Source: a virus
Strand: one strand, 5' to 3'
Virus record (IMG/VR): IMGVR_UViG_3300025112_000221
Location: 1-21,722 of that record
Length of the DNA: 21,722 nt
Every line of letters begins with the position of its first letter. Position 1 is the stretch's first letter. The notes below the pieces were generated by a model, which did not search any database, had not been told where the DNA came from, and saw nothing but the letters and a program-made list of their open reading frames with translations. A program made the translations under genes and the position numbers. This document shows, piece after piece, positions 1,345 to 21,710 of the stretch.

Positions 1345-1713
1345 GTGAACCTAAATATCCCAGTAGAGGTCCCAGACACTTCATGGTGGCAACTGGTAGA
1401 TCACACCGGTGGGATATACACAGATTACAGATCTGATCTTGTGTGTATATGTAATGCAGTCGCATCTTATAAGGCTGCGCAGATAGCACACTACTACGAC
1501 GAGCAAGCATCAAAATACCCGCCCGAACTGATTAGCATGATAGAACGGGCAGATGAGTTAACAGGACGAATCACGGAACAACTCACGAATTTCGTGACCT
1601 CGGAGGACGATGGCAGAGCAACACGTAGTTCTGGACGGAATAAAAGGCGTAAACGCTCCAGGAACCGTAAGAAAGCCAACTCGTCAGGCAAAAAGGCTAA
1701 GCGGCAGGGATAA
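1345..1713 (+). CDS. Hypothetical protein with a very basic C-terminal tail, overlapping portal
   Basis: A 122-aa protein starting at GTG 1345, with AAGGAG at 1332-1337 as ribosome site. Residues 1 to about 60 look like a small folded domain (PVEVPDTSWWQLVDHTGG...), residues 60-85 a helix (ELISMIERADELTGRITEQL), and the last 30 residues are dominated by Lys and Arg (GRNKRRKRSRNRKKANSSG). Such a tail would bind nucleic acid or acidic partners. The last 104 bases overlap the portal gene in a different frame, and this is where the basic tail is encoded. I do not recognise the family. Its place between terminase and portal makes a packaging or portal-assembly role conceivable but unproven. The strong ribosome site and ordered spacing support a real gene. 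Confidence 0.65.
   Translation: MNLNIPVEVPDTSWWQLVDHTGGIYTDYRSDLVCICNAVASYKAAQIAHYYDEQASKYPPELISMIERADELTGRITEQLTNFVTSEDDGRATRSSGRNKRRKRSRNRKKANSSGKKAKRQG
1602..1607 (+). promoter_or_regulatory. Ribosome binding site supporting the portal start at 1610
   Basis: GGAGGA lies directly before ATG 1610, inside the preceding gene. The spacing is short (two bases), but no comparable site precedes the next in-frame ATG at 1760. The long overlap between the two genes is therefore probably real and not a start-calling artefact. Confidence 0.5.
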
Positions 1714-3970
1714 GAAGAAGCTCGTCAAGCTAGGGCTGAAACGACAGCAGTATTCGTCGATGTCTACAGCTGAGTGGCGAGAGGGTGGCCGTAAGGGATA
1801 CAACTTCTACGAGTCAGCCCAAGTCCCACTGGAAGTTAGCAGGATGGAGACTGACTTCCCCGTCAGTCTGAACCTGGTCAAGGGTAGGATCGATACCAAG
1901 GTAGGTATCCTTACCGCTGGCAAGCCTATTACCGAGCTGGATCCTGTTGGTGCTGAAGATATGGAGGCAGTTGAGGCCTTTAAGCATATCTTCCAAGACT
2001 CGCAGAAGAAGTCCAGAGTTCCGTATAAAACCCAGCGTGGTGTGGCAGACATGGCCAAGTGTGGCCTTGCTGTATACTACGAGGGGGTAAACCCGAATAA
2101 GGAACAGCCTACTATACACGGAAAAGTTCCGGGCGATCTTGATCTATCATGGGTGGATCCACTTACCGTATATCCAGACCCAGCCAATCGAGATCCAGCC
2201 TTCAGAGACGAAGCCGCAGGTAGGTGGTATAATATCCTTGACGAACCTAGACTCGCCGAACTAATCCAACAACACCCACAATTCAAAACAGAGTTGCTTG
2301 GGGTTAGCGCCGCTTCTAGGAACAACATCCTCCACTCTCTCGATCGAGACTATGACCAGATCGGAGCCAATACACAGAGGGTGAGGTCGTCACACGGAAT
2401 AGCAGAGTCGGACAACTCTACTGAGGAGGATAAGAACCCTAAGTCTGATAAGGCAGATCCGGACGCTAGGATACAGACACTGACCTGTTACTATATGGAA
2501 CACGAGTCCATTGAGCAGGTGTGGTATCACGATCCGATGACTGGTGTATCGAAGCTAGCTAAGTTCGAGGAGTTTGAAGACCAGCCTGTTCTGGACCCAG
2601 AGACGAAGCAGATGCACTTCACCACTGTGACTTCGTCTAGGTTTATGGTCCCCGGTGATATACCCAAGGGTAATAAGAACGAAGATCCGACACAGAATCA
2701 AGACAACTATGAAGTAAGAGTAAAACTACTCCCCCGGCCGAGGGTATGCCTCATCGCTGGGGAGATCTTGTTATACGACAGACCTGTAGGGTATCACCAC
2801 GGTCACTTCCCCCATGTCTTCCTGATGGGGACGATGCACCGTAACAAGCCTTTGGGGTATGGTGAGGTTCACAACCTCTTCGAAGCCCAGACGCTTTTCA
2901 ACATGCTGAACAGTCTCCTGTTAGAGAACACCGTAAAAACCAACAACTCAGGTTGGATTTATGAGTCAGGTGCACTCACACCAGAACAGGAACGAAAGCT
3001 TAAAAGAAGCGGAGGGGAACCCGGATTCACCCTTAAGGTTAATCGCGGTCGAATTAGAGCAATTGATCGCATCGAACCAGGGCGTTTTCCCGAGGGAATT
3101 TATAGGTTGCAATCTGACCTACGGATCCTTTTCGACGACTTAAGCGAATTGTTCCAGACACAACGTGGAGGTATGCCATACGAAACCTCTGGCAAAGCTG
3201 TGATAGCCCTACAGCAAGCAGCCGACGTGTCTCTGGCTCAGCTACAACGTCACGTTGAGGAGTTTTTGACATGGCAGGGTAGACTGCGACTGAGTAATAT
3301 ACAACAGTTCTACACATGGGAGCGAGCATGGCGTGTGTCAAACAAGATGCGAGAGGAGACACACTACCTGGTCACCAAGCTAAAGGTTCAGGAGGATTTC
3401 AAGGGCCGATCCCAAGGTGGCGCACCAACACTACATCTAATGAAGTTCGAAGATGGCACCGGTCGACAGGCCGAGCTGTTAAAAGATTTCTCGATAGCTG
3501 AGTTCGACATCACCATCCAGATAACCTCCGAGCACAGACGCTCCGAGGAACAGGAGCTGGAATACACTCAGTATCTCAGAAGTATAGAGGCCATAGATAA
3601 CGAGGCGGTCTTAGAGATGCTCAACGTTCCGGGCCGTAAGAGAATTCAGGAACGTATGGATCAGAGGAATCAGGTCTTAGCGTTAGGTGAGAAGGCCCTA
3701 GCGTGGCTTGAGGAAGATCCTCAGGTATTCCAGTTGGTTAATATCGCTATCGAACAACCACAAGTTCTAATGCAGGTTCTGCAACAGGCCGGTATAGGGC
3801 CAGCAGAACTAGGGGAGATTACAGGGCAATCTCCTCCGGGTCAAGAATCAGAAACGTCCCCTGCGCTTTCTGAATTTCTGGGTCAGGATCCAGCAGGATC
3901 TGGTGCAGAGATAGGAGGACCCGCCTTTAGTCCCCAGCAACAGCTAGGGCCTCAAACGGTAAGCCAATAG
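1610..3970 (+). CDS. Portal protein, P22/N4-type
   Basis: A 786-aa protein expected to form the dodecameric ring at one capsid vertex through which DNA enters and leaves. Size and pattern fit the long portals of P22 (about 725 aa) and N4 (about 763 aa). Visible traits are the early KGRIDTKVGILTAGKP segment, the long helical DPVGAEDMEAVEAFKHIFQD stretch, DLSWVDPLTVYPDPANRD followed by DEAAGRW (the recurring 'D-P..v..DP..r..D' stretch of this group), and a Gln-rich helical and disordered C-terminus. The N-terminal 50 residues are strongly basic (RKPTRQAKRLSGRDKKK) and include the part overlapping the previous gene. Terminase upstream and scaffold plus capsid downstream support the call. An alternative start at 1760 (MSTAEWREGG) would remove the overlap but lacks a ribosome site. 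Confidence 0.85.
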   Translation: MAEQHVVLDGIKGVNAPGTVRKPTRQAKRLSGRDKKKLVKLGLKRQQYSSMSTAEWREGGRKGYNFYESAQVPLEVSRMETDFPVSLNLVKGRIDTKVGILTAGKPITELDPVGAEDMEAVEAFKHIFQDSQKKSRVPYKTQRGVADMAKCGLAVYYEGVNPNKEQPTIHGKVPGDLDLSWVDPLTVYPDPANRDPAFRDEAAGRWYNILDEPRLAELIQQHPQFKTELLGVSAASRNNILHSLDRDYDQIGANTQRVRSSHGIAESDNSTEEDKNPKSDKADPDARIQTLTCYYMEHESIEQVWYHDPMTGVSKLAKFEEFEDQPVLDPETKQMHFTTVTSSRFMVPGDIPKGNKNEDPTQNQDNYEVRVKLLPRPRVCLIAGEILLYDRPVGYHHGHFPHVFLMGTMHRNKPLGYGEVHNLFEAQTLFNMLNSLLLENTVKTNNSGWIYESGALTPEQERKLKRSGGEPGFTLKVNRGRIRAIDRIEPGRFPEGIYRLQSDLRILFDDLSELFQTQRGGMPYETSGKAVIALQQAADVSLAQLQRHVEEFLTWQGRLRLSNIQQFYTWERAWRVSNKMREETHYLVTKLKVQEDFKGRSQGGAPTLHLMKFEDGTGRQAELLKDFSIAEFDITIQITSEHRRSEEQELEYTQYLRSIEAIDNEAVLEMLNVPGRKRIQERMDQRNQVLALGEKALAWLEEDPQVFQLVNIAIEQPQVLMQVLQQAGIGPAELGEITGQSPPGQESETSPALSEFLGQDPAGSGAEIGGPAFSPQQQLGPQTVSQ

Positions 3971-4984: not shown

Positions 4985-6118
4985 ATGGCCGGTATCGTAT
5001 CCGGAACTTTTGCCAGATATGCGGAAACGTCGAACAACGACGGGAATCTCACCAGATTTCTGTTTACCGACGATCTGCATCAGCAAGTTAAGGACAAGCT
5101 CCTCTTCGCCCGACAGGGTTGGATGGGTCCAGACCGCGGTGGCGAGGATCCCCAGGACGAGAAGGAAGTTTACTTCCCTATCTTGCAGCGAACCGACCTG
5201 GGCAAGAAACGTGGTGACCATGTTATCCTTCCGTTGATGAAGAACCTTACAGGTGCTGCAACGGTTGGTAACTCCAAACTTTTGGAGACTTCTGGTGAGG
5301 AAGCTTTTGCTTTCGCCTACCTGAAGGTATACGTGGAAACCATGCGTCATGCCACAGGTTACGTTGGAGATATGTCTGAAGTTCGTAACCCTTTCCTTTC
5401 CGAGGAGAGCGCCTCTTCACAGTTGGCCAAGTGGCTGGCTGATCAGGAGGAAAAGGCAACACTCGACGCTTACTACGATGGCTTCTCAGCTCACGTAGTC
5501 ACTGGGATCTCTGCTGCTTCTGCAACAGACAATCCCAACTGGTTCTACGGTGGTGATGCTACTACCGAAGAGAACGTCGATTCGAACGACACGCTTGGAA
5601 CCGCTGACTTCGAGAAGATGTCGGTATGGGCCGAGGTCAACAAGATCAATGCTATCCGGGTTCCGGACGGTGTTGGTGGGATGGAAGAGGGGTATGCAAT
5701 GATTATCCACCCCTTCCAGATGTATGACCTTCGTCAGGATTCCGTGTGGCAGCAAGCACAGCGGGAAGGTAACGAGCGCGGCTGGAAGAACCCCATCTTC
5801 TCCGGTGCCAAGGGGATGTATGCAGGGATCTTTATCTACACCCACACGTTATGTGAAGTCGCCGCTTCTGGCGTAACCGATCGTAACAACAAACGTAGGG
5901 CCATCTTCACCGGTGCACACGCAATTGGCTACGCTACAGCAGTTCCGGAGCAGGTCAATCGTCGAGCCGAGGATGACTACGGTGTCGTGAGGGCGTGGGC
6001 TATTAGCAAGACCTATGGGTATGCTAGAGCCGACTGGCTGAACGACTCCGATAGTGGCACTACCTCATTCAATCAGTCCAGCGCTATTGTGACTACATAC
6101 GCTGCCCAGCCCTATTAG
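4985..6118 (+). CDS. Major capsid protein, N4 gp56 type
   Basis: A 377-aa protein that would form the icosahedral shell. The segment LGKKRGDHVILPLMKNLTGA, then the F-AYLKVYVETMRHATGYVGDMSEVRNPF stretch and the SSQLAKWLADQEE helix, match the pattern I know for the N4 gp56-like major capsid family (the DUF4043 group), including the highly conserved 'LGKKRGDHV' start. The C-terminal part (AHAIGYATAVPEQVNRRAEDDYGVVRAWAISKTYGYARA) is also typical. The length is close to N4 gp56 (about 400 aa). The start ATG 4985 has GGAG at 4971-4974. The gene follows the scaffold and is the centre of the head block. It is the strongest taxonomic marker in the window and, with the long portal, places the phage near the N4/P22-type architecture; it does not make it an N4 relative in the strict sense. 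Confidence 0.9.
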   Translation: MAGIVSGTFARYAETSNNDGNLTRFLFTDDLHQQVKDKLLFARQGWMGPDRGGEDPQDEKEVYFPILQRTDLGKKRGDHVILPLMKNLTGAATVGNSKLLETSGEEAFAFAYLKVYVETMRHATGYVGDMSEVRNPFLSEESASSQLAKWLADQEEKATLDAYYDGFSAHVVTGISAASATDNPNWFYGGDATTEENVDSNDTLGTADFEKMSVWAEVNKINAIRVPDGVGGMEEGYAMIIHPFQMYDLRQDSVWQQAQREGNERGWKNPIFSGAKGMYAGIFIYTHTLCEVAASGVTDRNNKRRAIFTGAHAIGYATAVPEQVNRRAEDDYGVVRAWAISKTYGYARADWLNDSDSGTTSFNQSSAIVTTYAAQPY

Positions 6119-6781: not shown

Positions 6782-7582
6782 ATGCGACGTTTTATTATGA
6801 GCGCCTTAGTTGCTGTAACGGCAATAGGGGTGCTTTTTTCTTTAGGTGATGCACAGCAGGGTGATAAGAAGTCCATCGTCACCACATCTCCTAATGCTTC
6901 ATGGTATTTTTTCAGCTTCGATGCTGATATTGACACAGCCCTAGAGTTCGTTGATGAGCTTGACTCGTTCGTGCAGATGGATGGCACGGACAAGATTGAG
7001 ATTGTATCAGCCCAAGCCGCTGATACCAAGCAACGTCTGCGGATCACGGGGATTTCAAAGTTTGACTCGACCCTACGAACTGAGTATATGCGCACCAATG
7101 GAACCACTGTGGTTACATCAGTGGATTCATTCTATGCATTCGAACACGCGGTTATTGACTCAGGTGTAGATGCTACTGGTGCTATCACTATTCGAAACGC
7201 GAACGGTGATGCAACGATAGCTACTATCACTATTGGTCAAACACAAACCTACGAAGCACAGAAGTTCTTCATGCGAGGGTCCAGTGGATACGTTACCCAA
7301 TGGACTGCGGGGGTTACCAGCACCACGGGAACAGTTAAGTTTGAGCTGAGGGCTTACCCGGATTACACAGATGTAAGGGATATGGGTGATGGTTATGCGG
7401 TGGTGGATGTTATAATGCTCCCAGCTGCACTTGGTGGAGAGACTCACGTCTTTAACCCCCCAAGATTAATCGACTCAGCCTATGGCTTCCTCACAGTGTT
7501 TGCCATAGGAGGGGCTAATAATTCAGATGGATATGTATCCGTTGAGGGATATACCCGATCGGCACCTCGTGACCAATACTAG
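6782..7582 (+). CDS. Signal-peptide-bearing beta-rich phage protein
   Basis: A 266-aa protein with GGGAGG at 6772-6777 as ribosome site. The N-terminus MRRFIMSALVAVTAIGVLFS with a likely cleavage after GDA (residue 24) is a textbook Sec signal. The mature chain reads as successive beta strands. The order DKIEIVSAQAADT, RLRITGIS, MRTNGTTVVTSVDSFYAFEHA, GAITIRNANGDATIATI, QTYEAQKFFMRGSSGYVTQW, GTVKFELRAYPD resembles a recurring but poorly characterised group of environmental-phage virion proteins built on 'AADT... NGTT.V... G.I.. ' elements. That resemblance is from memory of the pattern, not from a search. It stands between capsid and adaptor genes, so a decoration or head-surface role is plausible. 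It is the second signal-bearing protein in a row. Confidence 0.7.
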   Translation: MRRFIMSALVAVTAIGVLFSLGDAQQGDKKSIVTTSPNASWYFFSFDADIDTALEFVDELDSFVQMDGTDKIEIVSAQAADTKQRLRITGISKFDSTLRTEYMRTNGTTVVTSVDSFYAFEHAVIDSGVDATGAITIRNANGDATIATITIGQTQTYEAQKFFMRGSSGYVTQWTAGVTSTTGTVKFELRAYPDYTDVRDMGDGYAVVDVIMLPAALGGETHVFNPPRLIDSAYGFLTVFAIGGANNSDGYVSVEGYTRSAPRDQY

Positions 7583-8080: not shown

Positions 8081-8773
8081 ATGACAGCACAAAAGTTCCT
8101 TAATGATGTATGTGACATGACTCGCATGGACCGCGAGGACACAGATGATAAGACTAGGATCATCACATGGGGGAACTTTGCGCTTGATGAAATAGCTAGA
8201 GAGTTTGACTGTTGGTTCCTAGAGGTGGATTTTGAGGTTACCCTATCAGCATCCATCAGACGCTACGCACTCCCAACCACGGATATATACAGCAACACCG
8301 GTCTGGTAGTGATGCGTATGAGGCAAAAGTCTTTTCGGACAGCTACCGGAAGAATGCCTTTTCAACCAAACAGAGAGACCCTTGACCTGGAAGACCCAAC
8401 GTGGTTGGACACAACCGCAGAGGGTAATCCGGGCAGGGTGACCATCGTCGGTAACTTTCTGGTATTCGATCGGATCCCCAGTTCAGACTGGATAGCCGAC
8501 AATCCAAAGCTCTACTTCTCAGCATTCCGTAGAGCAGCTCAGATGGACGTTGATGCTTTATCCACGGAGATAGCTGACATTCCAGCTCCGTGGCACGACG
8601 TGATTTCTCTAGGTGCTCAGTATCGTGGCGAACAACGTCAGGGTGCCAAGGGATGGGGAAACAAGCGTGAGGAGTTCTACAACGCAGTGGAGAATATGAT
8701 GGACAAGTCCCTACCGTCTACAGATGATGATGACATGATAAACCTGCCATACACCGCTGCTGCGTATAGATAG
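8081..8773 (+). CDS. Probable head-tail adaptor protein
   Basis: A 230-aa protein. The start MTAQKFLNDVCDMTRM, the helix DKTRIITWGNFALDEIAREFDCWFLEVDFEVTL and the following RYALPTTDIYSNTGLVVMRMRQKS fit the general pattern of podoviral adaptor/connector proteins: an N-terminal helix with a conserved 'W.N.A..EIa..fd.Wf' segment, then a beta domain starting with 'Y.LP.d'. A helix toward the C-terminus (PWHDVISLGAQYRGEQRQG, then REEFYNAVENMMDK) also fits. Such proteins bind the portal ring and carry the tail hub. The next-but-one gene is a tail hub candidate, which agrees. The ribosome site GAGGA at 8069-8073 overlaps the end of the previous gene. Recognition is by pattern, so the exact subfamily is open. 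Confidence 0.6.
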   Translation: MTAQKFLNDVCDMTRMDREDTDDKTRIITWGNFALDEIAREFDCWFLEVDFEVTLSASIRRYALPTTDIYSNTGLVVMRMRQKSFRTATGRMPFQPNRETLDLEDPTWLDTTAEGNPGRVTIVGNFLVFDRIPSSDWIADNPKLYFSAFRRAAQMDVDALSTEIADIPAPWHDVISLGAQYRGEQRQGAKGWGNKREEFYNAVENMMDKSLPSTDDDDMINLPYTAAAYR

Positions 8774-10807: not shown

Positions 10808-13800
10808 ATGAATAAACTACTAAAGCTATCGTTACTGACGTTCCTGATGGTGCTGGCTCCCAGATTAGCGGAGTCCAAGCTGACGGTATATTCCAGGGTC
10901 TATACCTTTATCAACGGTCAGATCCTAACTCATACTCACCTTGAGGATGAACTCAACGCCCCAATCAACTGGCTAGAGAATACTCTCAAGCAGGGTGGCA
11001 GTTACTTTACGATAGCCAATGATGACACCCTTCGTGTCATAGGCTTTGCGTGGCTGGATACGTCTGAGGTGGCTGACGATGCTGCTTTCTACTTCGGTGA
11101 CGATGAGGACTTCTGGTTACAGTTTGATTCAGCCAACTCGATATTCGAATTCCATAGCACTGATACTGATGGCGCTGGTGCGGATGGGATAGTGTTCGAT
11201 ATAGACGTTGGAACGAACGACGTTCGCTTTAATGGTGGATTGGGAGTTGATGGTCAGACTGCCCCTACCGCTGGTATGGTACTGAATGGTAATATAGATC
11301 TCACTACTAGTGGCAACCGGATCGATCTCGATACTGACAACGACACCTCCATTCGGGCTAGTGCAGATGATGTTATTACATTCGAAGCTGCCTCCGACGA
11401 GTTGTCCTTGTCGGCAACCGCACTATACCCCGAGACTGACGATGGCTTAGCCTTGGGGATTGCCTCCACTAACGAGTGGGGTGACCAGTTCAACTCTAGT
11501 GGTTTCGTTGAGAACTATGACAACGGTGATGTAACTATTACCCACTCCGCAGGGAAGCTGACTTACGGTGGGGATGGTGCTGTTGAGCTAGACTTTAACA
11601 ACCACGAGATGACCAATGTAGACATCAACGGCGGGACAATCGATGGGGCGGTTATCGGTGCTTCTTCAGCCGCCGCTGGTACATTCACTACGGCTGTTTT
11701 CGATTCGGTAGCAACCGGTGGACTAAGCGCGAACCGAGTATCGAATCTTGACACCGTAAATACCGCAGATCACACCGTAACCTCCACAGCTACCTACGCT
11801 GGAGCTACGATTGCTAATCTCGGAACCGTAAGCGCAGCAACGTCTATTACCTCAACTGCTTTCGTCGGTCCCATAGATGGGATCGTAGGTGGGAATACCC
11901 CCGCTGCTGGATCTTTTACTACGGTTGATGGCTCGGTAATTACAGGAACCGGAATTCTCTCCACCTCAGATGCGACCGAAGCTACGAACACCACAACTGC
12001 CTCACTGAAAACAGCCGGTGGTATTGCTTGGGTGAAGGATGCCTATGTGGGTGATGATGTTTTCAATACCTCAGGTGCCGTATATGATTGGGATGGTGGG
12101 GATGTGACGTGGACTCACTCTGCCGGGAAGCTGACTCTGGGTGGTGACGGTGCCGTTGAAGTAGATTACGGTAGCCACGAACAAACGAATGTTGATATTA
12201 ACTCAGGAACAGTAGAAGCCACCATTGGGGCGACAACGCCAGCCGCAGGAACATTTACTACTATTACGGCGAACACCTCCACTACTTCATCTGTTCTTAC
12301 AACGCTTGGCGGTAGCACAGTTCTTACGGGCAATATTGATATTACTGGAAGCACTGGACAGATAAGCACCAATGCCGACTCCACATTCGTCACGCGCCCC
12401 ACATCCAACCTTATAGAGTCTGCCCACAAAGTAATTCGCGTGAGCCTCTACGATCAGTCGGTAATGTGGAACCGTCAGGCTTTTCACGCCAAGAGTAAGA
12501 ATACGAGTTGGTATAAAGAGCTTGGCCCGATGCCTGATGAACTGGAAATACGGGTAACGGCTGGCGAGGATTCACTTGTAATTTGGGATATGCAGACAGG
12601 TGAAGAATGGATGATATTTGTTGGCGCACCCCAGAATATGTTAAGGGGAACAACTATCCCTGACTTCGCTTTCTTGGACGGAAGGTTATATACTGCGGGT
12701 GGGTCAGGTGGGTATGGTGTGAATGTGATAGATTTCTTGCGCGACTCGATGCAAGGTTATATGACACAAGGGATGCGTAAATATAATGGGGACATCACAA
12801 ACAGAAATGCCGCTGGCGATGTATTCGACTTTGATGCCAATGCCATTGTAAACAACACCGTCAACGCAGTCGCAGTCATCCGTGATCCTGAAGGGTCAGA
12901 GGATGAGTTTGGGAGGAAGAAGCAGATATTTCAAGTTACTACAGCAAGCGGCACTTCTATCTCTGACGCGGGGATAGAAAACATTTACGATGAAGCAAAT
13001 ACGGGAGTGTCTTACACCAACTCCACCATCACCCCGCAGGGTTTCCACGCTTACATATCTGACGGTGGAGTAGAATCGGCCCAACTGTATAGAAATATCC
13101 TGGCTGACATTGGAACGGGTGATGGATGGAACGAAGATTACAATATGAACTCAAGTAAAACGGGGTCGAATGATATTCCAACACCCGCAGGGTCAGGAGC
13201 AAATGACCTTGTGCTTATGCCACAGGCTTCAGTGGCACACGATGGCGATCCGGTTGTATTCTTTGCTCAAAATGACGGCCTGAGTGTTCAGCACATCAAT
13301 GCGTCTTCGGGCAACGAGAACAGCGGCCTCACCTTCATCCTTCGTGACACGGTGAATACAGGTGGATGGTCGAACACTGTTGTCGATGCTTGGGGATTTC
13401 ACGGTCTGAACGATGCACCTTTTGGTATGGTATGGACTGCTAACGGAACCCCAACATTCGCAACGGGTGGTAAAATTGGAAATGGCTTAATCGGCCTTGA
13501 TGGATCAACAGATTATCTTACTCGCAGTGATGCTGGGTTAGCTGTAGGGGCTGGAGACTTTAGTATTTCAATATGGTATAAGTCAACGTCAGCTACTAAT
13601 CCAGCAGGGTCAGAATATATATTTGAACTACGTGACTCCGGCACAGTAGGTAACTTTGCAAGATTATATCTTGATACTGCTGGACTTTTAAAATTCTGGC
13701 TTCAAGAGGATGGAGTTGGATCAGATCAGGCAGCAGGGGCAGTGGACTTATACGATGGAAAGTGGCATCATATTGTTTGCACTGGCGATGATACTAATGA

Positions 13801-15034
13801 TGATTTAGTGGAGTTGTATGTTGATGGAGAACTTCACGATACTGAATCTTGGGGAACTGCTGATGGCGATCTTACTTTTGACGAAATAGCCATTGGAGGA
13901 AGTAATGGCGGTGGGAATTTGTTTGCCGGGGATATTGATGAACTTGTGATTATTCCAGGTAGATTCCTAACACCGAAAGAAAACCGATGGATGTATCAGC
14001 GCGGTCTACGAGGACGTGGCACAGACGAAGATTACCTTGCATCCAATGACGTTGATTACATCGCCGTAGATGAGGCCAGCGGCTTCGTAGCAGTCGGCAA
14101 CCAAGACTCTGTTGTCGTGCTGGACCAGTTCTTGATCCCCATCACGGGCGCACGTTACGGCACCCCCGGCGGGGCCATTGACGATGTGGCATTGTGGACG
14201 GCAGCAGGGCAGGATTCTATCGGACTGATCGTCGGAGCCGCCAACGCTACCCAGTGGATTCAACCCCCACAGTTACTTGCTGAAGCTGGCGCACAGCAGC
14301 AGACGGAGATTGTTGTGCCACGCGCTGACATCGGCTGGCACAGGGGGCCGAGCAATTTACACCTGTTCGATGCCGTAGTAGATTCAGCGGGTAACGGCGA
14401 CTACACAAACGTTGATGATGCGATAGATGCTCTGGGCGCAGGGGCTTCGATCTTCATTAAAAATGGCACTTACCCGCCGTTCACGATGGACGTTCACAAC
14501 TTGCATATTGTGGGCGAAAATTGGTTTGGGACAGTCATTGACGGTGGGACAACGGCAGATGCAGTAACGGTATCATCGGCAGACAACGGCTATCTTGGCA
14601 ATATGACCGTGAAGACCGATGCAGGGCAAGGGAACTCCTACGCCGGGATCGACCAGGATGCTACCTACGCTTTCACGATAGAACGCATTTATATTCCTGA
14701 TGTTGATGATGATGGCATTCAGATTGACGGTTCGACTGATTACTATACTCGCGTAATCGACTGTTACATTGTCGGGTCTGACGACGATGCTATTTTTGTG
14801 AATGGCCCCAATGTTATGGTGACAGGTTGCCGGATACAGGGAACGTCAGGGATAGGCATTCACGTTGGAATCAACGGCGACTACTTCGTGATTATGGGCA
14901 ACACAATCTGGAGCGCGACTTCAACTACGATTGTGTCTGGCGCAAACTACGGGACAAATTGCGTGAACAGCCAGAACCTTGCAACGAGTGACAGCGGGAC
15001 CGGAAATTCAGTCTCGCTCAACTCAGTATTCTAA
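10808..15034 (+). CDS. Mosaic tail fibre/spike with signal-type N-terminus, LamG and beta-helix
   Basis: A 1408-aa protein and the probable receptor-binding protein. Residues 1-23 look like a Sec signal (MNKLLKLSLLTFLMVLAPRL, AES before Lys24). Then comes a fibre-type head (YTFINGQILTHTHLEDELNAPINWLEN, about 33-60), which in ordinary fibres lies near residue 1 and joins the tail. Residues 236-295 and 426-485 are two copies of a 60-aa repeat. Residues about 500-860 look like propeller-type blades (PDFAFLDGRLYTAGGSGGYGV...). Residues about 868-1060 form a LamG/concanavalin-like domain (DFSISIWY 917, KWHHIV 985, ELYVDGEL 1002, GDIDEL near 1041). Residues 1187-1408 form a beta-helix of the pectin-lyase type. 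No catalytic residues can be assigned. No clear ribosome site precedes it; it starts one base after the previous stop. Confidence 0.75.
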   Translation: MNKLLKLSLLTFLMVLAPRLAESKLTVYSRVYTFINGQILTHTHLEDELNAPINWLENTLKQGGSYFTIANDDTLRVIGFAWLDTSEVADDAAFYFGDDEDFWLQFDSANSIFEFHSTDTDGAGADGIVFDIDVGTNDVRFNGGLGVDGQTAPTAGMVLNGNIDLTTSGNRIDLDTDNDTSIRASADDVITFEAASDELSLSATALYPETDDGLALGIASTNEWGDQFNSSGFVENYDNGDVTITHSAGKLTYGGDGAVELDFNNHEMTNVDINGGTIDGAVIGASSAAAGTFTTAVFDSVATGGLSANRVSNLDTVNTADHTVTSTATYAGATIANLGTVSAATSITSTAFVGPIDGIVGGNTPAAGSFTTVDGSVITGTGILSTSDATEATNTTTASLKTAGGIAWVKDAYVGDDVFNTSGAVYDWDGGDVTWTHSAGKLTLGGDGAVEVDYGSHEQTNVDINSGTVEATIGATTPAAGTFTTITANTSTTSSVLTTLGGSTVLTGNIDITGSTGQISTNADSTFVTRPTSNLIESAHKVIRVSLYDQSVMWNRQAFHAKSKNTSWYKELGPMPDELEIRVTAGEDSLVIWDMQTGEEWMIFVGAPQNMLRGTTIPDFAFLDGRLYTAGGSGGYGVNVIDFLRDSMQGYMTQGMRKYNGDITNRNAAGDVFDFDANAIVNNTVNAVAVIRDPEGSEDEFGRKKQIFQVTTASGTSISDAGIENIYDEANTGVSYTNSTITPQGFHAYISDGGVESAQLYRNILADIGTGDGWNEDYNMNSSKTGSNDIPTPAGSGANDLVLMPQASVAHDGDPVVFFAQNDGLSVQHINASSGNENSGLTFILRDTVNTGGWSNTVVDAWGFHGLNDAPFGMVWTANGTPTFATGGKIGNGLIGLDGSTDYLTRSDAGLAVGAGDFSISIWYKSTSATNPAGSEYIFELRDSGTVGNFARLYLDTAGLLKFWLQEDGVGSDQAAGAVDLYDGKWHHIVCTGDDTNDDLVELYVDGELHDTESWGTADGDLTFDEIAIGGSNGGGNLFAGDIDELVIIPGRFLTPKENRWMYQRGLRGRGTDEDYLASNDVDYIAVDEASGFVAVGNQDSVVVLDQFLIPITGARYGTPGGAIDDVALWTAAGQDSIGLIVGAANATQWIQPPQLLAEAGAQQQTEIVVPRADIGWHRGPSNLHLFDAVVDSAGNGDYTNVDDAIDALGAGASIFIKNGTYPPFTMDVHNLHIVGENWFGTVIDGGTTADAVTVSSADNGYLGNMTVKTDAGQGNSYAGIDQDATYAFTIERIYIPDVDDDGIQIDGSTDYYTRVIDCYIVGSDDDAIFVNGPNVMVTGCRIQGTSGIGIHVGINGDYFVIMGNTIWSATSTTIVSGANYGTNCVNSQNLATSDSGTGNSVSLNSVF
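11513..11692 (+). repeat. Fibre repeat, copy 1 (60 codons)
   Basis: Residues 236-295 of the fibre. Key elements are GDVTITHSAGKLTYGGDGA, NVDINGGTIDGAVIG and AAAGTFTT. It matches the copy at 12083-12262 in length (180 bases each) and in about half of its residues, with many base differences, so the duplication is not recent. Confidence 0.75.
11867..11923 (+). repeat. Fibre repeat, short third copy
   Basis: Residues 354-372 (GPIDGIVGGNTPAAGSFTT) repeat only the last third of the 60-residue unit ('IDG..IG...PAAGTFTT'). This is a common fibre-stalk motif that usually marks the end of a beta segment. Confidence 0.6.
12083..12262 (+). repeat. Fibre repeat, copy 2 (60 codons)
   Basis: Residues 426-485. 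Elements are GDVTWTHSAGKLTLGGDGA, NVDINSGTVEATIGATTP and AAGTFTT. It is preceded by TTTASLKTAGGIAWVKDAYVG, a segment of the kind common in phage fibres before an 'added track' repeat. The composition of the DNA changes soon after this copy. Confidence 0.75.
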
Positions 15035-15040: not shown

Positions 15041-15046
15041 TTGAAA

Positions 15047-15493
15047 ATGATTCGATTACATTGGAAATGGTTAGTGTTTTACGTGGGTGTGATTCTGTTT
15101 GGTGTGACAGTTGGAAGTGCGATTTCGCAGACGCGCGTAGAGCGTGAGATAGCAGTCCTCAAGGCAAGGATAGACTCTATACGCGCCTCGGAAAACGCGA
15201 AGGGTGCTTTTGCGTCGAGAGTTTTCGTAAAGTCGGTGGCAGATACGATGCCAGCACTGGCAGCAGCAGGCGTGAGAGTAGTTGCTGACGTGCGTGATGG
15301 CCAATGGGTGCAAATTGACCTTCCCCTATCTACGGCTACAGGATTCGAGCTTAATTTCTGGAAAGAATTTATTAAAACTTCTGGAGCAAAAAGCGGGATA
15401 GATAAACAGCTAAGGAACGTGGATGGAAGAATTCGCCTGAGAAAAGATAGAGCCGTAGCACTTCTCCAAGAACTTAACGACAAACTCAAATAG
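15047..15493 (+). CDS. Small membrane-anchored coiled-coil protein
   Basis: A 148-aa protein. Residues 8-26 form one transmembrane segment (WLVFYVGVILFGVTVGSAI) after a basic MIRLHWK, so the N-terminus should stay in the cytoplasm. Residues 30-52 form a short coiled coil (VEREIAVLKARIDSIRAS). The rest is a soluble domain with a helix (TGFELNFWKEFIKTSG) and a basic helical end (RIRLRKDRAVALLQELNDKLK). One N-terminal anchor plus a periplasmic coiled coil is the layout of an inner-membrane spanin, and lysis genes can lie in the late region. However, no holin or endolysin is visible in the window and the overlapping outer-membrane spanin frame is not seen. A fibre chaperone or membrane-attachment role is equally possible. 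Confidence 0.7.
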   Translation: MIRLHWKWLVFYVGVILFGVTVGSAISQTRVEREIAVLKARIDSIRASENAKGAFASRVFVKSVADTMPALAAAGVRVVADVRDGQWVQIDLPLSTATGFELNFWKEFIKTSGAKSGIDKQLRNVDGRIRLRKDRAVALLQELNDKLK

Positions 15494-15504
15494 GGTAATT
15501 AAAG

Positions 15505-18500
15505 ATGGCAACAACCCCAGGATCCTCACCTCCGAGATCGGATAGGTCGGGTAGTAATACATTCGCAGATTGGGATCCAATCACCAGGCGCTGGGTTCCA
15601 AGGAATCCATTAGGGATAAACTCTAGCGGTAATGCCCCGTCAGTTCCTGACAGTCCAGAGGAAGCTAACCAGAACACCGCAGATCAATTCGGTGCGGATA
15701 GCCAGCCCAATTTCCCGGGGTCGCCAGCAGCTTCGAGGTTCCAAGGATCGAACTCACTGCTGGATGCTGCTGCCTCTAGTTTGGAAAGCGATATCACTAA
15801 CAACAACTTCGGCTTACAGAACGAGGTTGACTTTAGGTTTAAAGATGCCGAGGGTAATGAGCAGACAGAGAAGCGTAGTGTATTCAGAATCCTATCCGAT
15901 GAGGCTAGGGGTCAGCTCGACAAGTCTCTACAGGACAGGATACAGCGTGAGGAGCAAGACCTTATAGGTGCTGGGCTGTTCAGGGGTGGACAGCTACTAA
16001 CCTCTCGTGGTGAGGCTGTTCAGGATGCCGGTGACCAGTTTACTGACTTCCTGAATCGATTATCAGTCGACGAGGCACAGCGCTTTAGTGATGCTAAAGC
16101 CAGCACGTTGGGGCTGGCTAGTCAGGTAGGTGGACAACAGGCTTCTCTGGAAGTCCAAGCTGACCAGTTGGATCTGGATGCTGAGTCTTTACGGCTGGCA
16201 TTTAACACGATGATGTCTGATGCCACTATACGTGAAAAAGCCAATGAGATAGCGGAACGTGCACAGGCCTTTGGAGAGAAGGTCACCGAGGCTGAGCTTA
16301 CGGGTATGTTTACAGCACTGGGGCCGGGAGCCTTTATCGGGTTCACTGAGGCTCTGTTCGCATCAAAGGGTGATCCGGCTTATAATGCCGAGTACGATAT
16401 AGACAAGAATGGCACGATAGATCGGGCCGACATGCGCCAGTTGTCTGCGTCTGGTGTGGAGACGTTGCAGCTTAGGGCTTTCACAGCCAGCGAAGAACAG
16501 CGAGAGATCGACAACACTATCCGATTGGCTGAGACTACGGGCTTCTTGCCTACGGTTGACGTAGAGGGTGGCTTCTTCTTCAGCACCGATGAGGATGGGC
16601 TGTTCTCCGGTCAGGCTACCAGCGCTGAGCGCAGGACACAGTGGGAGCAGAAGTTCGCTGAGTCGGACCTGACGGGCGTGTGGACGTATAAAGACCCAGA
16701 GACTGGTAAGGATATAACAGTAGACACAGAGGCCAAGAAAGACCGGCTGTTCAACCAAGCGATGGCTATCTCGGCTGCTTCTGGTGTGATGCCAGAGGTG
16801 GACGATGAGGGTAGATTCGTATTCGACTTCACGACTAATGAGGATGGTTCTCTAAAGACCTCTGTCACTACTGCTGCTGAACGCGACGCGGCTTTCCAGC
16901 GTAAGCTTGACGAGGCTAATCTCACTGGTGTGTTTGATGATGCTCCCACTAGGGATGCACTAAACGACGCATTCAATCGAGCTGTGGTAAAGGCTGAGCT
17001 TACTGGTGAGTTCGGTGAGCCTATATACAACGAGGATGGTTCTCCTCAGTTAGACGACAATGGTAACCTCGTGTTCGAGGAAGGTACTGCACCCACGCTG
17101 GAGAAGCTGGACCAGATCTTCAACCAGACATACGCTATGGCCCAGCTCACGGGATTTGTCCCCGGCGTAAACGAAGACGGTCAGTTCACCTTTAGCACGG
17201 ATGAAGACGGAGAGTTCAATGGTGTAACTACGGCTGCTGAGCGTGACAGTGTGTTCAATCGTCTGGTGACCGAGGCTGGAGTCACTGGTCGGTGGAATAC
17301 CGGCGAAGTGGACGATAAGGGTAATCCGATATTCGAAGACACAGAGGCTAAGCTTACGAGGCTGTTCAATGAGAAGGTCGTTGAGGCTGAGCTTACCGGA
17401 GTGTTCAAGTCCGGAGAGATCGGGGAAGATGGCAAGCCTGTAGCAGGGGTGGACACCGAAGCTAAGCTGACCAGGTTGTTTAACGAGGCTATGCAGTTGG
17501 CTCAGGTCACTGGGTTCGTTCCAGCCAAGAACGAGAATGGACAGTATGTATTTGATATCGGTGAGGATGGTGAGACAACGGGTGTTACCACTGCCGATGA
17601 ACGTGAGGCAGCTTTCCGTAGGAAACTGGACGAGTCATTTGTTACCGGTAAGTTCGGTGATGATGCCACGGTCCAGCAGATACAACAGTTATGGGAGAAT
17701 GCAGTCGTAGAGGCTGAGTTGACTGGTGTGTTTTCCACACAAAAACTGGACGACGACGGACAGCCAGTATACAACGACGATGGCACACCAGTGATGGTGA
17801 CCACCGACACCCAAGATGCATTGGATCGTGCTTGGGAGAAAACGTTAGCAGAGGCAGATGCGCTAGGGTATCTGGATGGTGTGGATGATAAGGGCAACCC
17901 CATACGAACGCCTACTCTGGACTCTCAGATAGCAGCGGGACGAGTGAGGGACCCACAGGATCCTGATAAGTTTGTCGACTCACCGGACAAGATAAAAGCT
18001 GACGCTGCTACTACGGCTGCTGCTGCTCAGGAGGATGCTGCTTACTACAGCGGGCTTTCGGATGCTGTTACAAATCTCCTGCCTATACTAGGTGAGCTTG
18101 GTATAGCTGGTCCACTACAGGATCTTATAAAAGATCTGATACAGGGTCCGTTTAGTAACGAACCTCCCGGTGAAGACCCTTTTAAACTACCCCCACCCGG
18201 TAAGAGGGACCCAAATGATCCGGGTAGCAACGATCCTAACAAGGGTGGACCACCCCCCGGTGGTAGAACAAACGATCCTAATAACCCATCACCGAGAGGT
18301 GGTGGTGGACCTACGGATGGTATTCCAGACAGCCCAGTTGGTAATGGCCTGAGGAGTATGGTTCCGTCAGGGTCCAACGCTGAGGACTTTATCCCTGATG
18401 GGAAGAACAGTCATGGTAACTGGGTTTTCCGAAATCCGAATGGATCACACATCACGGTAACCCCAGATGGTAACGTTTCCAGGCTGGTGAATAAAAAGGG

Positions 18501-19929
18501 TATACTAGAGAAGAAGACGGTTATCAACGAAGCTGGGGAGTCGTTCACGATCACCAAAGACCAGTTCCTTGCCGGTGTTCGTAACCAGACTTTGGTTAGG
18601 ATTGGTTGGGACATCATCAACAACGGATTCGGTGTTAATACTGTAGGTAAGATCCCCGACCACGTAAACAAAGCGGCTTTGGCTACTACCCTAGCGTCTT
18701 CCAATATGAATCCATACCTTGCGTTGGCTGTGCAGATGGGTCTGGACGAGTTCTTGAACAAGTTCGGCAACCCTGACTTTGTTGAGCCTATGAGGGCAGC
18801 TTTCCAGAGTGGTTCGTTGGGTGAGGTATCTAACGAACAACTGATAGGATGGCGTGATGGGACAGTTGGTGGGTTGGGGACAGGTCAGGCCGGATGGAGC
18901 TTCGATGGTGAGCGATCGTGGAGAGGCATATCCTTGGGGCCAATGGCTAAGGCTATTGATATGGAGATTACCAGGCGTGGGTTCGAACAGATGGAAGCCG
19001 ATGGTGTGGTGCCGGGGAGTTCACCTGAGTTCGATGAGCTTATGGCCCATCTAGGCACGAGGGAGGATGTAGAGGGTGGTGAGCAGGGAGCTTGGGTGAT
19101 GGTGTCTAGGCTGTATATGAAACACGACGGTGATATGACTGCTGTGGTAGACGAGCTATCCACCCCCAACATGAGCATACTGGACCGTGAGGGTGATGGC
19201 TTCATGGAGAAGTTCGGGCCAACGTTTGACTCAGGTCCACCTCCCGGTGGTGAGTTCGATCCTTCTATAACATCCATCGAGAAACAGGATCTCACCCGTT
19301 CCAATCTAGACGAAAAGATGGGTGATCTGGGGCTAACGGATGAGCAGATAGCTAGTGTCACGTTCTTGTTAGATGGACAGAACGGTGAGTTCCTCATGCA
19401 ACAGGCTCTACAGAAGCACAATGGTGATCCATTCAAAGCCGGTGAGCAGATCCTTGCAGACCTAGGGTTTGGACCAGAGCCGGTAGTAGAGGAGTCTGGT
19501 GGTGGAGCTACCACGTTTGATCCCACGGGCGGTGACCCCAACCAACCGCCCCCCGGTGGTGACCCCAACCAACCGCCCCCCGGTGGTGACCCCAACCAAC
19601 CGCCCCCCGGTGGTGACCCCAACAGCCCAGTTAGTAACGTCCCCGGTGACTGGTTTACTGTTGCCAACGATACTAACACACAGCAACCGGCACTACTAGC
19701 AGAGGACTTCACACCAGAAGATTCAGAGAAGGTGATCGATAATATGGGAGCCGTTTTACAAACCTGGTATGGGTTTAGTGAGACTGAGGTTTCTGCTCTG
19801 ATAAAATCTTTGAGAAGTAACCCGTTACTACGACAGACGATATTAGAACGCTTAGCAGAAACTGGTGGTAATCATATTGATACTGCTAGGGTAATGGCTG
19901 AAGAAATTAAATCGATCTTTGGGAGGTAA
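15505..19929 (+). CDS. Giant repeat protein (1474 aa), possible internal virion/ejection protein
   Basis: I do not recognise a named family. Residues 1-80 are disordered (Ser/Pro/Asn). Residues about 85-250 are helical and Gln/Asp-rich. Residues 298-309 are a dockerin/EF-hand-like loop (DIDKNGTIDRAD). Residues 260-800 hold about 13 short units ending 'A.lTG.F', arranged in about 120-residue super-repeats. Residues 885-942 are a Pro/Gly/Asp/Asn linker. Residues about 950-1160 are a possible globular domain (NWVFRNPNGSHITVTPDGN, RIGWDIINNGFGV). Three alike helical modules follow at about 1174-1222, 1262-1322 and 1401-1474, separated by PPPGG linkers. The protein is strongly acidic, with no signal, membrane segment, lysozyme or polymerase motif. 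Position after the fibre and before a coiled-coil protein suggests an internal or ejected protein. The ribosome site is weak (AGGG at 15492-15495). Confidence 0.7.
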   Translation: MATTPGSSPPRSDRSGSNTFADWDPITRRWVPRNPLGINSSGNAPSVPDSPEEANQNTADQFGADSQPNFPGSPAASRFQGSNSLLDAAASSLESDITNNNFGLQNEVDFRFKDAEGNEQTEKRSVFRILSDEARGQLDKSLQDRIQREEQDLIGAGLFRGGQLLTSRGEAVQDAGDQFTDFLNRLSVDEAQRFSDAKASTLGLASQVGGQQASLEVQADQLDLDAESLRLAFNTMMSDATIREKANEIAERAQAFGEKVTEAELTGMFTALGPGAFIGFTEALFASKGDPAYNAEYDIDKNGTIDRADMRQLSASGVETLQLRAFTASEEQREIDNTIRLAETTGFLPTVDVEGGFFFSTDEDGLFSGQATSAERRTQWEQKFAESDLTGVWTYKDPETGKDITVDTEAKKDRLFNQAMAISAASGVMPEVDDEGRFVFDFTTNEDGSLKTSVTTAAERDAAFQRKLDEANLTGVFDDAPTRDALNDAFNRAVVKAELTGEFGEPIYNEDGSPQLDDNGNLVFEEGTAPTLEKLDQIFNQTYAMAQLTGFVPGVNEDGQFTFSTDEDGEFNGVTTAAERDSVFNRLVTEAGVTGRWNTGEVDDKGNPIFEDTEAKLTRLFNEKVVEAELTGVFKSGEIGEDGKPVAGVDTEAKLTRLFNEAMQLAQVTGFVPAKNENGQYVFDIGEDGETTGVTTADEREAAFRRKLDESFVTGKFGDDATVQQIQQLWENAVVEAELTGVFSTQKLDDDGQPVYNDDGTPVMVTTDTQDALDRAWEKTLAEADALGYLDGVDDKGNPIRTPTLDSQIAAGRVRDPQDPDKFVDSPDKIKADAATTAAAAQEDAAYYSGLSDAVTNLLPILGELGIAGPLQDLIKDLIQGPFSNEPPGEDPFKLPPPGKRDPNDPGSNDPNKGGPPPGGRTNDPNNPSPRGGGGPTDGIPDSPVGNGLRSMVPSGSNAEDFIPDGKNSHGNWVFRNPNGSHITVTPDGNVSRLVNKKGILEKKTVINEAGESFTITKDQFLAGVRNQTLVRIGWDIINNGFGVNTVGKIPDHVNKAALATTLASSNMNPYLALAVQMGLDEFLNKFGNPDFVEPMRAAFQSGSLGEVSNEQLIGWRDGTVGGLGTGQAGWSFDGERSWRGISLGPMAKAIDMEITRRGFEQMEADGVVPGSSPEFDELMAHLGTREDVEGGEQGAWVMVSRLYMKHDGDMTAVVDELSTPNMSILDREGDGFMEKFGPTFDSGPPPGGEFDPSITSIEKQDLTRSNLDEKMGDLGLTDEQIASVTFLLDGQNGEFLMQQALQKHNGDPFKAGEQILADLGFGPEPVVEESGGGATTFDPTGGDPNQPPPGGDPNQPPPGGDPNQPPPGGDPNSPVSNVPGDWFTVANDTNTQQPALLAEDFTPEDSEKVIDNMGAVLQTWYGFSETEVSALIKSLRSNPLLRQTILERLAETGGNHIDTARVMAEEIKSIFGR
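16282..17900 (+). repeat. Diverged higher-order repeat encoding 'A.LTG.F' units
   Basis: About 13 units of roughly 40 codons or fewer, each ending in an 'A.(L/V)TG.(F/W)' corner followed by an acidic hairpin-like loop and a helix 'T.a.R...F.....eA'. The units with a proline after the corner (GFLP, GVMP, GFVP, GFVP) recur at about 16540, 16789, 17155 and 17515, then a related GYLDG at 17868, giving steps of about 366, 360 and 353 bases. At DNA level copies such as GAGGCTGAGCTTAC are still recognisable at 16288, 17383 and elsewhere but many third positions differ. Confidence 0.75.
16396..16431 (+). other. Dockerin/EF-hand-like calcium-binding loop in the giant repeat protein
   Basis: Residues 298-309 read DIDKNGTIDRAD. 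Asp at 1, Asp at 3, Asn at 5, Gly at 6, Thr at 7, Asp at 9 and Asp at 12 occupy the metal-binding positions of an EF-hand or dockerin loop. Only one loop of clear quality is present, so it would be a single site, not a paired EF-hand. Confidence 0.55.
19531..19623 (+). repeat. Perfect 27-bp tandem repeat (3.4 copies)
   Basis: Three identical 27-base units at 19531-19557, 19558-19584 and 19585-19611, and a 12-base partial copy to 19623. Each unit encodes GDPNQPPPG, so the repeat lengthens a Pro-rich linker without changing frame. Base identity across copies indicates recent duplication by slippage. Confidence 0.95.
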
Positions 19930-19931
19930 GG

Positions 19932-21710
19932 ATGCCACGATTCGAAGGGCTAGTTAAGACCGCTGGTGCCATTGGGCGTGGCGTTAGGGGATTCAAGGAG
20001 AACCAGTTTCAGGACGAGTTCAGGGAGGAGCAGTTACTGGGTCTTAAGAGTCAGCGTGAAGCTCGTGGATTGGACAACGAGATCAAGCGCAATAGCCTTA
20101 AACAAACACAGATAGACAAGGCAGCAGCCAAGGAGATCCTTGCAAGGTTAAGCAAGAGGGATATCGAGGGTGCTAGGACAGCACTTGGCAAGCACCAGTC
20201 GTTGGGGATGTCTGAGACTTTGTCTGGTCAGATGTTCAACGCTATCGAGGCCTTGGCGAAAACCAAGAGGTCAGAAGCCAAGGATGCGGAAATCAAACAG
20301 GCCAATAACCTGAAAGAGCAGGGTGTAATATTCCAAGGTGCCTTACAGCAGGGCCTAGTAAAGGATCCGGATGCTAATACTGAGAAGCTAGCCGAGAGGT
20401 TCTTTCTTCCCGGTGGTGGTGGACCGAACGACTTGGAAACGTTCTTGGGCTTAGTGAACCAATTCCCTGCTATCGAACAACGGGCACAGCTTGGTGCGTC
20501 ACAGCAACGATCGGCCACTAACACTGCTAACAAGCCAGCGCAAAGTGATTCGCAGAAAAGAGCTGGTCGAGCAGGATTCTTCAGGTCGGTAGACGAGACT
20601 GCTCTGAGGATAGCAAAGCGTGATGGTGCTATGTCCGCGGACATAGCCAAACTCACGATAGCTGAACAACTACAGAGGTTAGACAATAAGGGCAGTAGGA
20701 GTGTTGGTATAACAGAGGATCATATCAGACAGGCATTCCAGTTTGTGATGAATGGTGATATCGAGGCCGACTATGGACCCAATGTAAAACTTCCAACGAT
20801 AGAAGAGGTTCTTGGTCAGCATGGATTTTTACCACCACCACATAACATTAGCGTTTATCGAGACCCACTATCACCACAGTCCAGTGGATCTGTATTTGTG
20901 GATTCTCTGGGGGCTGGAGCAACTGGACTTTTTCCGGTATCTACGCCACCTCCGCAGGGTCAACCTCCACCCCCCGGACCTGCCGTGGTAGGTGGTGGGC
21001 AACCACCCCCAGATGAACAGGGCTTCGACCACAATGCTTTCATCGAAGCTATTAATGTGAGAGCTGAGGAGTTAGGAATAGCACCCGAGGTATTCGCTAA
21101 ACAGGTACTAGATAGTAATGTTGATCTAAGAACTGGTAAGGCTCTATCACCGGGGATGGTTAGTGCCCTGGAAGCTATTATACAGTCCACTACCCCACAG
21201 GGTGGTAATCTTGTGACTGGTGCAGGTGAGGAGCAGGCATTGTCCTTCCCCAGTGGTGGGACTCCTGGATTTGGGGAACTGGCTCCACGACCAGAGGTGC
21301 CTTTTGAACCAGACACGAGTGGTTTCGATGCACTACCCGAGGCTCCTAAAGTTGACCGGGTAGAGGTTAGGGAGCTTCAGGCGCAAAGAGAAAAAGCTGA
21401 GGGTAGTATACAGAAGATACGTCGTAGGGTTAGTGCCCTTGCCCAACACCTAGGGTTCTATATTGGACAGTTTGAGGACCCAAAGGAAAAGCTTTCGAAT
21501 AGAAGGAAGGAGTTAGAAAAAGAGATAGCCAATCCCATAGGACTGGTTGGTGACCAAGAGGGAACAGACGTTGGGATCGATCGGAATCTTGAGGAGATAG
21601 CGCAGATAAACGAACTAGAGCAGCTCATTAGGATAGTAAGAGATCTGGAGAGTGGTTTAAGGAAATCAGATGATCAGTTCCGAACTAAGTTCCACGGAGA
21701 ATCTAGATAG
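19932..21710 (+). CDS. Coiled-coil protein, possible internal virion/ejection protein
   Basis: A 592-aa protein starting three bases after the previous stop, with GGGAGG at 19921-19926 as ribosome site. Residues 1-20 are basic and Gly-rich (KTAGAIGRGVRGFKENQ); residues 20-75 form a charged helix (EEQLLGLKSQREARGLDNE); residues 80-300 are helical; residues about 336-361 are a Pro/Gly-rich linker (STPPPQGQPPPPGPAVVGGG) like those in the 1474-aa protein. Residues 370-415 are a small helical domain (AFIEAINVRAEELGIAPEVF), and the C-terminal 120 residues are a long coiled coil (ELQAQREKAEGSIQKIRRR, KLSNRRKELEKEIA, ELEQLIRIVRDLESGLRKS). No enzyme motif is visible. Helical, amphipathic, late-gene proteins in this position are often internal core/ejection proteins of short-tailed phages. 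That assignment is by position and composition. Confidence 0.65.
   Translation: MPRFEGLVKTAGAIGRGVRGFKENQFQDEFREEQLLGLKSQREARGLDNEIKRNSLKQTQIDKAAAKEILARLSKRDIEGARTALGKHQSLGMSETLSGQMFNAIEALAKTKRSEAKDAEIKQANNLKEQGVIFQGALQQGLVKDPDANTEKLAERFFLPGGGGPNDLETFLGLVNQFPAIEQRAQLGASQQRSATNTANKPAQSDSQKRAGRAGFFRSVDETALRIAKRDGAMSADIAKLTIAEQLQRLDNKGSRSVGITEDHIRQAFQFVMNGDIEADYGPNVKLPTIEEVLGQHGFLPPPHNISVYRDPLSPQSSGSVFVDSLGAGATGLFPVSTPPPQGQPPPPGPAVVGGGQPPPDEQGFDHNAFIEAINVRAEELGIAPEVFAKQVLDSNVDLRTGKALSPGMVSALEAIIQSTTPQGGNLVTGAGEEQALSFPSGGTPGFGELAPRPEVPFEPDTSGFDALPEAPKVDRVEVRELQAQREKAEGSIQKIRRRVSALAQHLGFYIGQFEDPKEKLSNRRKELEKEIANPIGLVGDQEGTDVGIDRNLEEIAQINELEQLIRIVRDLESGLRKSDDQFRTKFHGESR

Follow-up and report, generated by a model that had tools for sequence, protein, structure and literature searches.

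A 13-unit TG-repeat array in a candidate ejection protein of a podovirus with a P22-type portal

An array of 13 TG units was identified in a 1474-residue protein encoded by a virus whose genome is represented by one linear record of 21,722 bases, the whole of which constitutes the window analysed here. Direct evidence covers the repeat itself, how old it is, the relationship of its unit to those of other phages and the head/neck setting of the gene. Taking these together, we estimate a probability of roughly 0.55 that the open reading frame encodes an ejection (internal or pilot) protein of an uncultivated podovirus with a P22-type portal, in which the TG array would be a modular spacer or assembly arm. 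The ejection role is drawn from gene context only; that the protein is packaged and ejected, and that the array acts as a spacer, is inferred. The protein is probably an undescribed part of the DNA-injection machinery.

The TG array and its gene neighbourhood

The main genes of the window, with their best family matches, are listed below.

1610..3970, + strand: portal protein, P22 type (PF16510, E=2.8e-40; phrog_156, E=2.5e-51)
4985..6118, + strand: major capsid protein (PF13252, E=9.2e-24; phrog_334, E=2e-33)
8081..8773, + strand: tail adaptor protein, SU10 type (PF24175, E=2.8e-10)
10808..15034, + strand: tail fibre- or spike-like protein with a LamG domain (PF13385, E=3.3e-21)
15041..15493, + strand: small protein with one N-terminal hydrophobic segment, directly 5' of the TG gene
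15505..19929, + strand: TG-repeat protein, 1474 residues, a single open frame (open reading frame list and translation)
19932..21710, + strand: 592-residue protein directly 3' of the TG gene, without family match

Genes on the + strand run from the end of the large terminase through the P22-type portal, a scaffold-like protein, the major capsid protein and several small proteins to the SU10-type adaptor, a 545-residue virion structural protein and the LamG-bearing fibre, followed by the small membrane-anchored protein, the TG-repeat protein and the 592-residue protein. The P22-type portal places the genome among the podoviruses, and the TG gene sits in its late, structural module, with portal, major capsid protein and adaptor upstream on the same strand. 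Hydrophobic N termini resembling signal peptides, which one would not normally expect of virion proteins that assemble in the cytoplasm, are encoded at 6165-6716 and 6782-7582, beside the capsid gene, and at 10808-15034, the fibre gene (hydropathy 1.8, 2.3 and 1.5).

The 1474-residue protein consists of an N-terminal helical part (residues ~80-265), the TG units (residues 244-800), linkers rich in proline and glycine, and a C-terminal part. One linker holds a tandem repeat of nine residues, GGDPNQPPP, in about four copies (19528-19629, residues 1342-1375), resembling those of flexible linkers. No convincing match to the protein was found in Pfam (sub-threshold hits only), PHROGs, NCBIfam, PDB sequences or 50,697 phage records, and viral contigs yielded no close relative when queried with the whole protein, the repeat region, an alignment of the super-repeats, the 545-residue protein or the capsid protein. 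Roseobacter phage CRP-9 gave a weak tblastn hit (E=4), which was dropped because the unit profiles did not back it.

Each TG unit comprises a helix of ~18-20 residues, mostly ending in A-x-L-T-G-x-[FYWLM], and then a loop. The TG dipeptide or its equivalent anchors the 13 units at residues 266, 345, 390, 426, 474, 500, 549, 594, 631, 669, 714, 740 and 787 (bases 16300, 16537, 16672, 16780, 16924, 17002, 17149, 17284, 17395, 17509, 17644, 17722 and 17863); 12 of them are contiguous, from residue 345 to 787, and a 79-residue spacer parts the first from this array. Profiles built with one unit left out recover 12 of the 13 at E values of about 2e-6 or better, unit 345 being weak (E=0.05). The array is laid out as follows.

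16234..16311, + strand: first TG unit (helix plus TGMF, residues 244-269; leave-one-out E=5e-8)
16396..16434, + strand: EF-hand-like loop DIDKNGTIDRADM (residues 298-310), in the spacer between units 1 and 2, by consensus match
16537..16779, + strand: first, incomplete super-repeat of two units, TGFLP type (45 residues) and TGVW (36)
16780..17148, + strand: super-repeat S1 of three units, SGVMP (48 residues), TGVF (26) and TGEF (49)
17149..17508, + strand: super-repeat S2 of three units, TGFVP (45 residues), TGRW (37) and TGVF (38)
17509..17862, + strand: super-repeat S3 of three units, TGFVP (45 residues), TGKF (26) and TGVF (47)
17863..17904, + strand: diverged end unit LGYLDGVDDKGNPI at the edge of the array (helix profile, leave-one-out E=1e-7)

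A preliminary description of this DNA had proposed a super-repeat of about 120 residues, and self-alignment indeed peaks at an offset of 120, with 71 high-scoring windows of 15 residues (46 at an offset of 240), against a maximum of 13 windows over all offsets in 100 shuffles. Proline-type units at 16537, 16780, 17149 and 17509 (residues 345, 426, 549 and 669) open super-repeats, the first of two units and the other three of three units each, in agreement with the proposed count of two non-proline units after each, one in the first; a related LGYL unit at 17863 is the fifth that had been placed near 17868. Steps from one proline-type unit to the next, ending at the LGYL unit, are 243, 369, 360 and 354 bases, so that the last three, originally put at 366, 360 and 353, were right within a few bases. 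The proposed three-unit order stands in that every third unit is of the proline type, but the non-proline units do not form two separate classes: the observed period-three grouping ranks 5th of 280 possible groupings with whole units and 2nd of 280 with helices, its signal is carried by the proline class, the second and third places in the super-repeat cannot be told apart, and the most alike non-proline units are 594 and 631. Similarly, a helix with 'R...F' and an acidic loop had been ascribed to every unit, whereas units 474 and 714, 26 residues each, have no acidic D/N-G turn and the R of 'R...F' is not present in every unit.

Unit lengths fall into classes of 26, 36-38 and 45-49 residues, which makes the array modular and not strictly regular. 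In the longer units there are one or two acidic D/N-G turns, which on inspection of the sequence look like beta-hairpins, and the classes lie ~10-11 residues apart, as though hairpins had been added onto a core of 26 residues; a crude automatic count of turns correlates with unit length (r=0.83).

The super-repeats are 43-44% identical in protein and 50-54% in DNA. At identical residues, codons are shared at 24 of 47, 20 of 51 and 17 of 48 positions, where codon usage leads one to expect 18.8, 19.3 and 18.6. Since sharing is close to this expectation, synonymous sites look saturated and the copies old, and a recent DNA-level duplication was rejected as the explanation on this ground. Judging from these sequence comparisons, the conserved residues are kept by selection on the protein, as had been proposed from the divergence of the copies in DNA.

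Relatives of the unit in other uncultivated phages

Motifs like T-G-x-Y-x-G-Q-P-T occur in phages, and this prompted a scan of viral contigs for that motif, written as a degenerate DNA pattern; it returned at least 120 stretches (cited below by L numbers). Among the matches listed, about two dozen code for helical proteins that contain between one and four TG units, L038/L079 and L044/L104 being near-duplicates. A profile made from 32 units of other phages only finds the 1474-residue protein at E=1.3e-14, its repeat region scoring 58.6 bits against 5.2 bits for the best of 300 shuffles of that region. Because the upstream helix lies outside the pattern by which the relatives were selected, its agreement is independent evidence of kinship. 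In the reverse direction, the profile of the 13 units matches L033 (4e-8), L118 (3e-5) and L083 (1e-4), and a local match pairs TGVFDDAPTRDALNDAFNRAVVKAELTG with TGVLGGAPTLAAQQQAFNQALAEAGLTG. Homology of the N-terminal part with other TG proteins is unsupported, its profile giving no match outside the units.

TG-to-TG spacings in the other phages, among the matches listed, include 26 (six cases), 37 (four) and 19 (four), and 26, 26, 36, 37 and 38 occur among the unit spacings of the 1474-residue protein. Spacings of 19, 37 and 38 are found in the TG proteins of L125, L103 and L058. The steps between spacings of 19, 26, 37 and 48 are 7 or 11 residues, a difference that preserves helical phase and may hint at a coiled-coil register.

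Across 84,980 prokaryote genomes the longer pattern A-x-L-T-G-x-Y-x-G-Q-P-T matched three times, never in a TG protein; these matches (L169-L171) were set aside as unrelated proteins or frames. Of 41 stretches obtained with a pattern for EAELTG-x-F, L137 and perhaps L157 are the only ones that appear related. The relatives' TG proteins that were tested against phage records, Pfam, PHROGs and NCBIfam had no match there save one sub-threshold Pfam hit.

The genes around these relatives are again those of heads and necks. Among the matches listed, a P22-type portal is present in 7 of 25 relative records and an SU10-type adaptor in four, one of them below the curated cut-off; other records have a terminase or major head protein close to it, and in some the TG gene stands just 5' of genes for a scaffold-like protein and the major head protein. 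A protein of 1173-2367 residues is encoded directly downstream of the TG gene at seven loci and two genes upstream at two, again among the matches listed. Giants with glucosaminidase, SLT, M23 or C39 domains occur in L071, L073, L077, L031 and L079, while in L081, L083 and L109 the gene directly 3' of the TG gene encodes a polyvalent protein with LPD38/ART domains. According to Iyer et al. 2017 (PMC5512222), phage polyvalent proteins probably travel in the particle and enter the cell together with the DNA, and the gene pair in these three loci suggests that the TG protein is connected with the delivery of injected effectors. In the environmental phages L071, L073, L031 and L079, adjacent genes for a protein of ~530-660 residues, the TG protein and the hydrolase or C39 giant resemble the gp14-gp15-gp16 arrangement of T7; in L077 just the TG protein and the giant are visible.

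L106 has the same broad gene order as the present genome (portal, major capsid protein, adaptor, fibre region, small signal-bearing protein, TG gene), and L033 repeats it from the adaptor-like gene on, in the known part of that locus. An adaptor followed by a large neck or tail protein before the fibre region is common to L106, L033 and this genome. Just 5' of the TG gene, L106, L033 and L083 encode a small protein whose N terminus looks signal-like, with one short open reading frame in between in L083.

In PMC8954989, podovirus ejection genes are described as clustered, with a large protein possibly carrying a peptidoglycan hydrolase; the clustering of the relatives' TG genes with a large hydrolase-capable gene resembles such an operon as portrayed there. 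In the present genome, the only gene visible 3' of the TG gene before the record ends is the unmatched one for the 592-residue protein, a candidate partner ejection protein whose similarity to the neighbour genes at other TG loci is not significant. The last base of the record lies 12 bases beyond this gene, and the sequence up to there encodes neither a hydrolase giant nor a polyvalent one.

Structure of the array and alternative readings

AlphaFold gave a pLDDT of 42 and a pTM of 0.21 without an alignment, and 55 and 0.40 with a four-row alignment of the super-repeats. Both models have one helix of ~18 residues per unit with beta-hairpin joints and show no confident global fold, and a Foldseek search of the low-confidence model against viral models returned nothing meaningful. 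A long regular solenoid or superhelix, as first imagined, is neither borne out nor contradicted by these poor predictions; the stepped unit length (26, about 37, about 47) disfavours a regular solenoid.

The acidic loops of the array are real, the repeat region having a net charge of -54, and they had led to the idea of an acidic internal protein by which the DNA in the capsid would be organised, with metal ions or basic partners as the means. This charge and one EF-hand-type loop, DIDKNGTIDRADM, would suit such a role. The latter is the single loop that fits the EF-hand consensus, by a PROSITE-type pattern that occurs in only 26 of 2000 shuffles; it is located outside the contiguous array, and Pfam EF-hand_1 scores it below threshold (residues 298-310, E=0.008, 16.1 bits against a cut-off of 25.4), which leaves it no more than a putative calcium site. 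Against the DNA-organising role, the TG proteins of other phages are only mildly acidic (-3 to -19) and their units have no acidic loops, which therefore cannot be the general function of the unit. The loops also look like common hairpin turns, the fibre protein of this phage is more acidic overall (-127), and no basic DNA-compacting protein was identified, although none was specifically sought. With nothing tying the loops to metal or to DNA-compacting partners, we regard this role as highly improbable. It is also quite unlikely that the array has no role of its own and merely expanded neutrally, through unequal crossing-over in a protein that evolves fast. The range of unit number across phages, from 1 to 13, and the close likeness of the neighbouring units 594 and 631 are what such a process would leave, yet 43-44% of residues and the period-three order have been kept despite apparent synonymous saturation, which argues for an old, constrained array.

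A placement outside the capsid, with the TG array as a rod in a neck or tail component (a nozzle extension, a fibre attachment or a needle-like structure), is a rather unlikely alternative to the ejection protein. The TG gene does lie close 3' of the genes for the fibre and the small membrane-anchored protein, and acidic beta-hairpin repeats would suit an exposed rod. The relatives' TG genes, however, adjoin hydrolase or polyvalent giants or head genes and not consistently fibres, and the neck roles in this phage may already be filled by the adaptor and the 545-residue protein.

A candidate ejection protein and known systems

Reading the 1474-residue protein as an ejection protein, we propose that the TG unit would be a small building block, one to four of which other phages use in a like module, and which here would have been multiplied to thirteen. 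Acidic beta-hairpin inserts would have been added, so that units measure 26, about 37 or about 47 residues, with a proline-type unit at every third position. The protein would be packaged with the DNA and exit through the portal loosely folded; the TG array would then form a modular spacer or assembly arm that joins the N-terminal helices to the C-terminal part, acting while the ejection proteins build a passage across the cell envelope. As homology is demonstrated for the TG unit only and not for its flanks, the unit could also be borrowed by a protein of another role. The protein has no predicted membrane segment (best 19-residue Kyte-Doolittle value 1.3), which speaks against a gp14- or gp16-type role and not against a gp15-type tunnel role. 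No similarity to the gp14, gp15 or gp16 families was found in PHROGs, Pfam, NCBIfam or the PDB, nor to gp7, gp20 or gp16 of P22 in PHROGs, Pfam or the PDB; for gp15 and gp16 this is weak counter-evidence, as proteins of these types diverge strongly.

Ejection proteins are already a known kind of protein; it is the TG unit that appears new and undescribed, as far as the libraries and literature searched show, and no report of TG repeats in podoviral ejection proteins was found in that literature. The form with 13 units and period three is the most elaborate among the matches listed. The passage of DNA and proteins through the envelope is described in detail for few short-tailed phages, such as T7. 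The signature helix-TG-x-[FYW], with steps of 26/37 and beside hydrolase or polyvalent giants, could serve to annotate ejection modules in uncultivated phages where homology searches fail; the unit would give a testable structural unit, and the 13-unit protein an example of how such a module can lengthen. It is tempting, if improbable, to go further and see in the array a molecular ruler of the ejection machinery, with discrete unit steps matching the thickness of the envelope, and in the unit the mark of an injected protein family that is common among uncultivated phages and of which no experimentally studied member is known.

The nearest comparison is with the TG proteins of other phages (L033, L083, L109, L049, L073, L071, L104, L125 and others), which have the same helix-TG-x-[FYW] unit, the 26/37 spacings and the head, neck or ejection context. 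They differ from the 1474-residue protein in having one to four units, mostly with a G-Q-P-T loop and without acidic hairpins, and demonstrable similarity is confined to the units. The TPR, HEAT and Sel1-like families of Pfam are built of tandem helical solenoid units. The TG array is like them in its tandem helical units and unlike them in having one helix plus a beta-hairpin per unit and a variable unit length; none of the repeat families of Pfam matched it, and a stacked fold is not confidently predicted (pTM 0.21, 0.40). Polyvalent proteins (LPD38, ART-PolyVal; PMC5512222) are encoded next to the TG gene in L081, L083 and L109, the TG protein itself having no polyvalent domain and being a neighbour of that group rather than a member. 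Gp14, gp15 and gp16 of T7 and gp7, gp20 and gp16 of P22 are likewise encoded in a late cluster after the tail genes. At 1474 residues, the TG protein is longer than any of the ejection proteins from PMC8954989 compared here (up to 1337 residues). It resembles podoviral ejection proteins in general as one of several large, poorly conserved and largely helical proteins and, at the related TG loci rather than in this genome, in having a giant peptidoglycan hydrolase as its neighbour.
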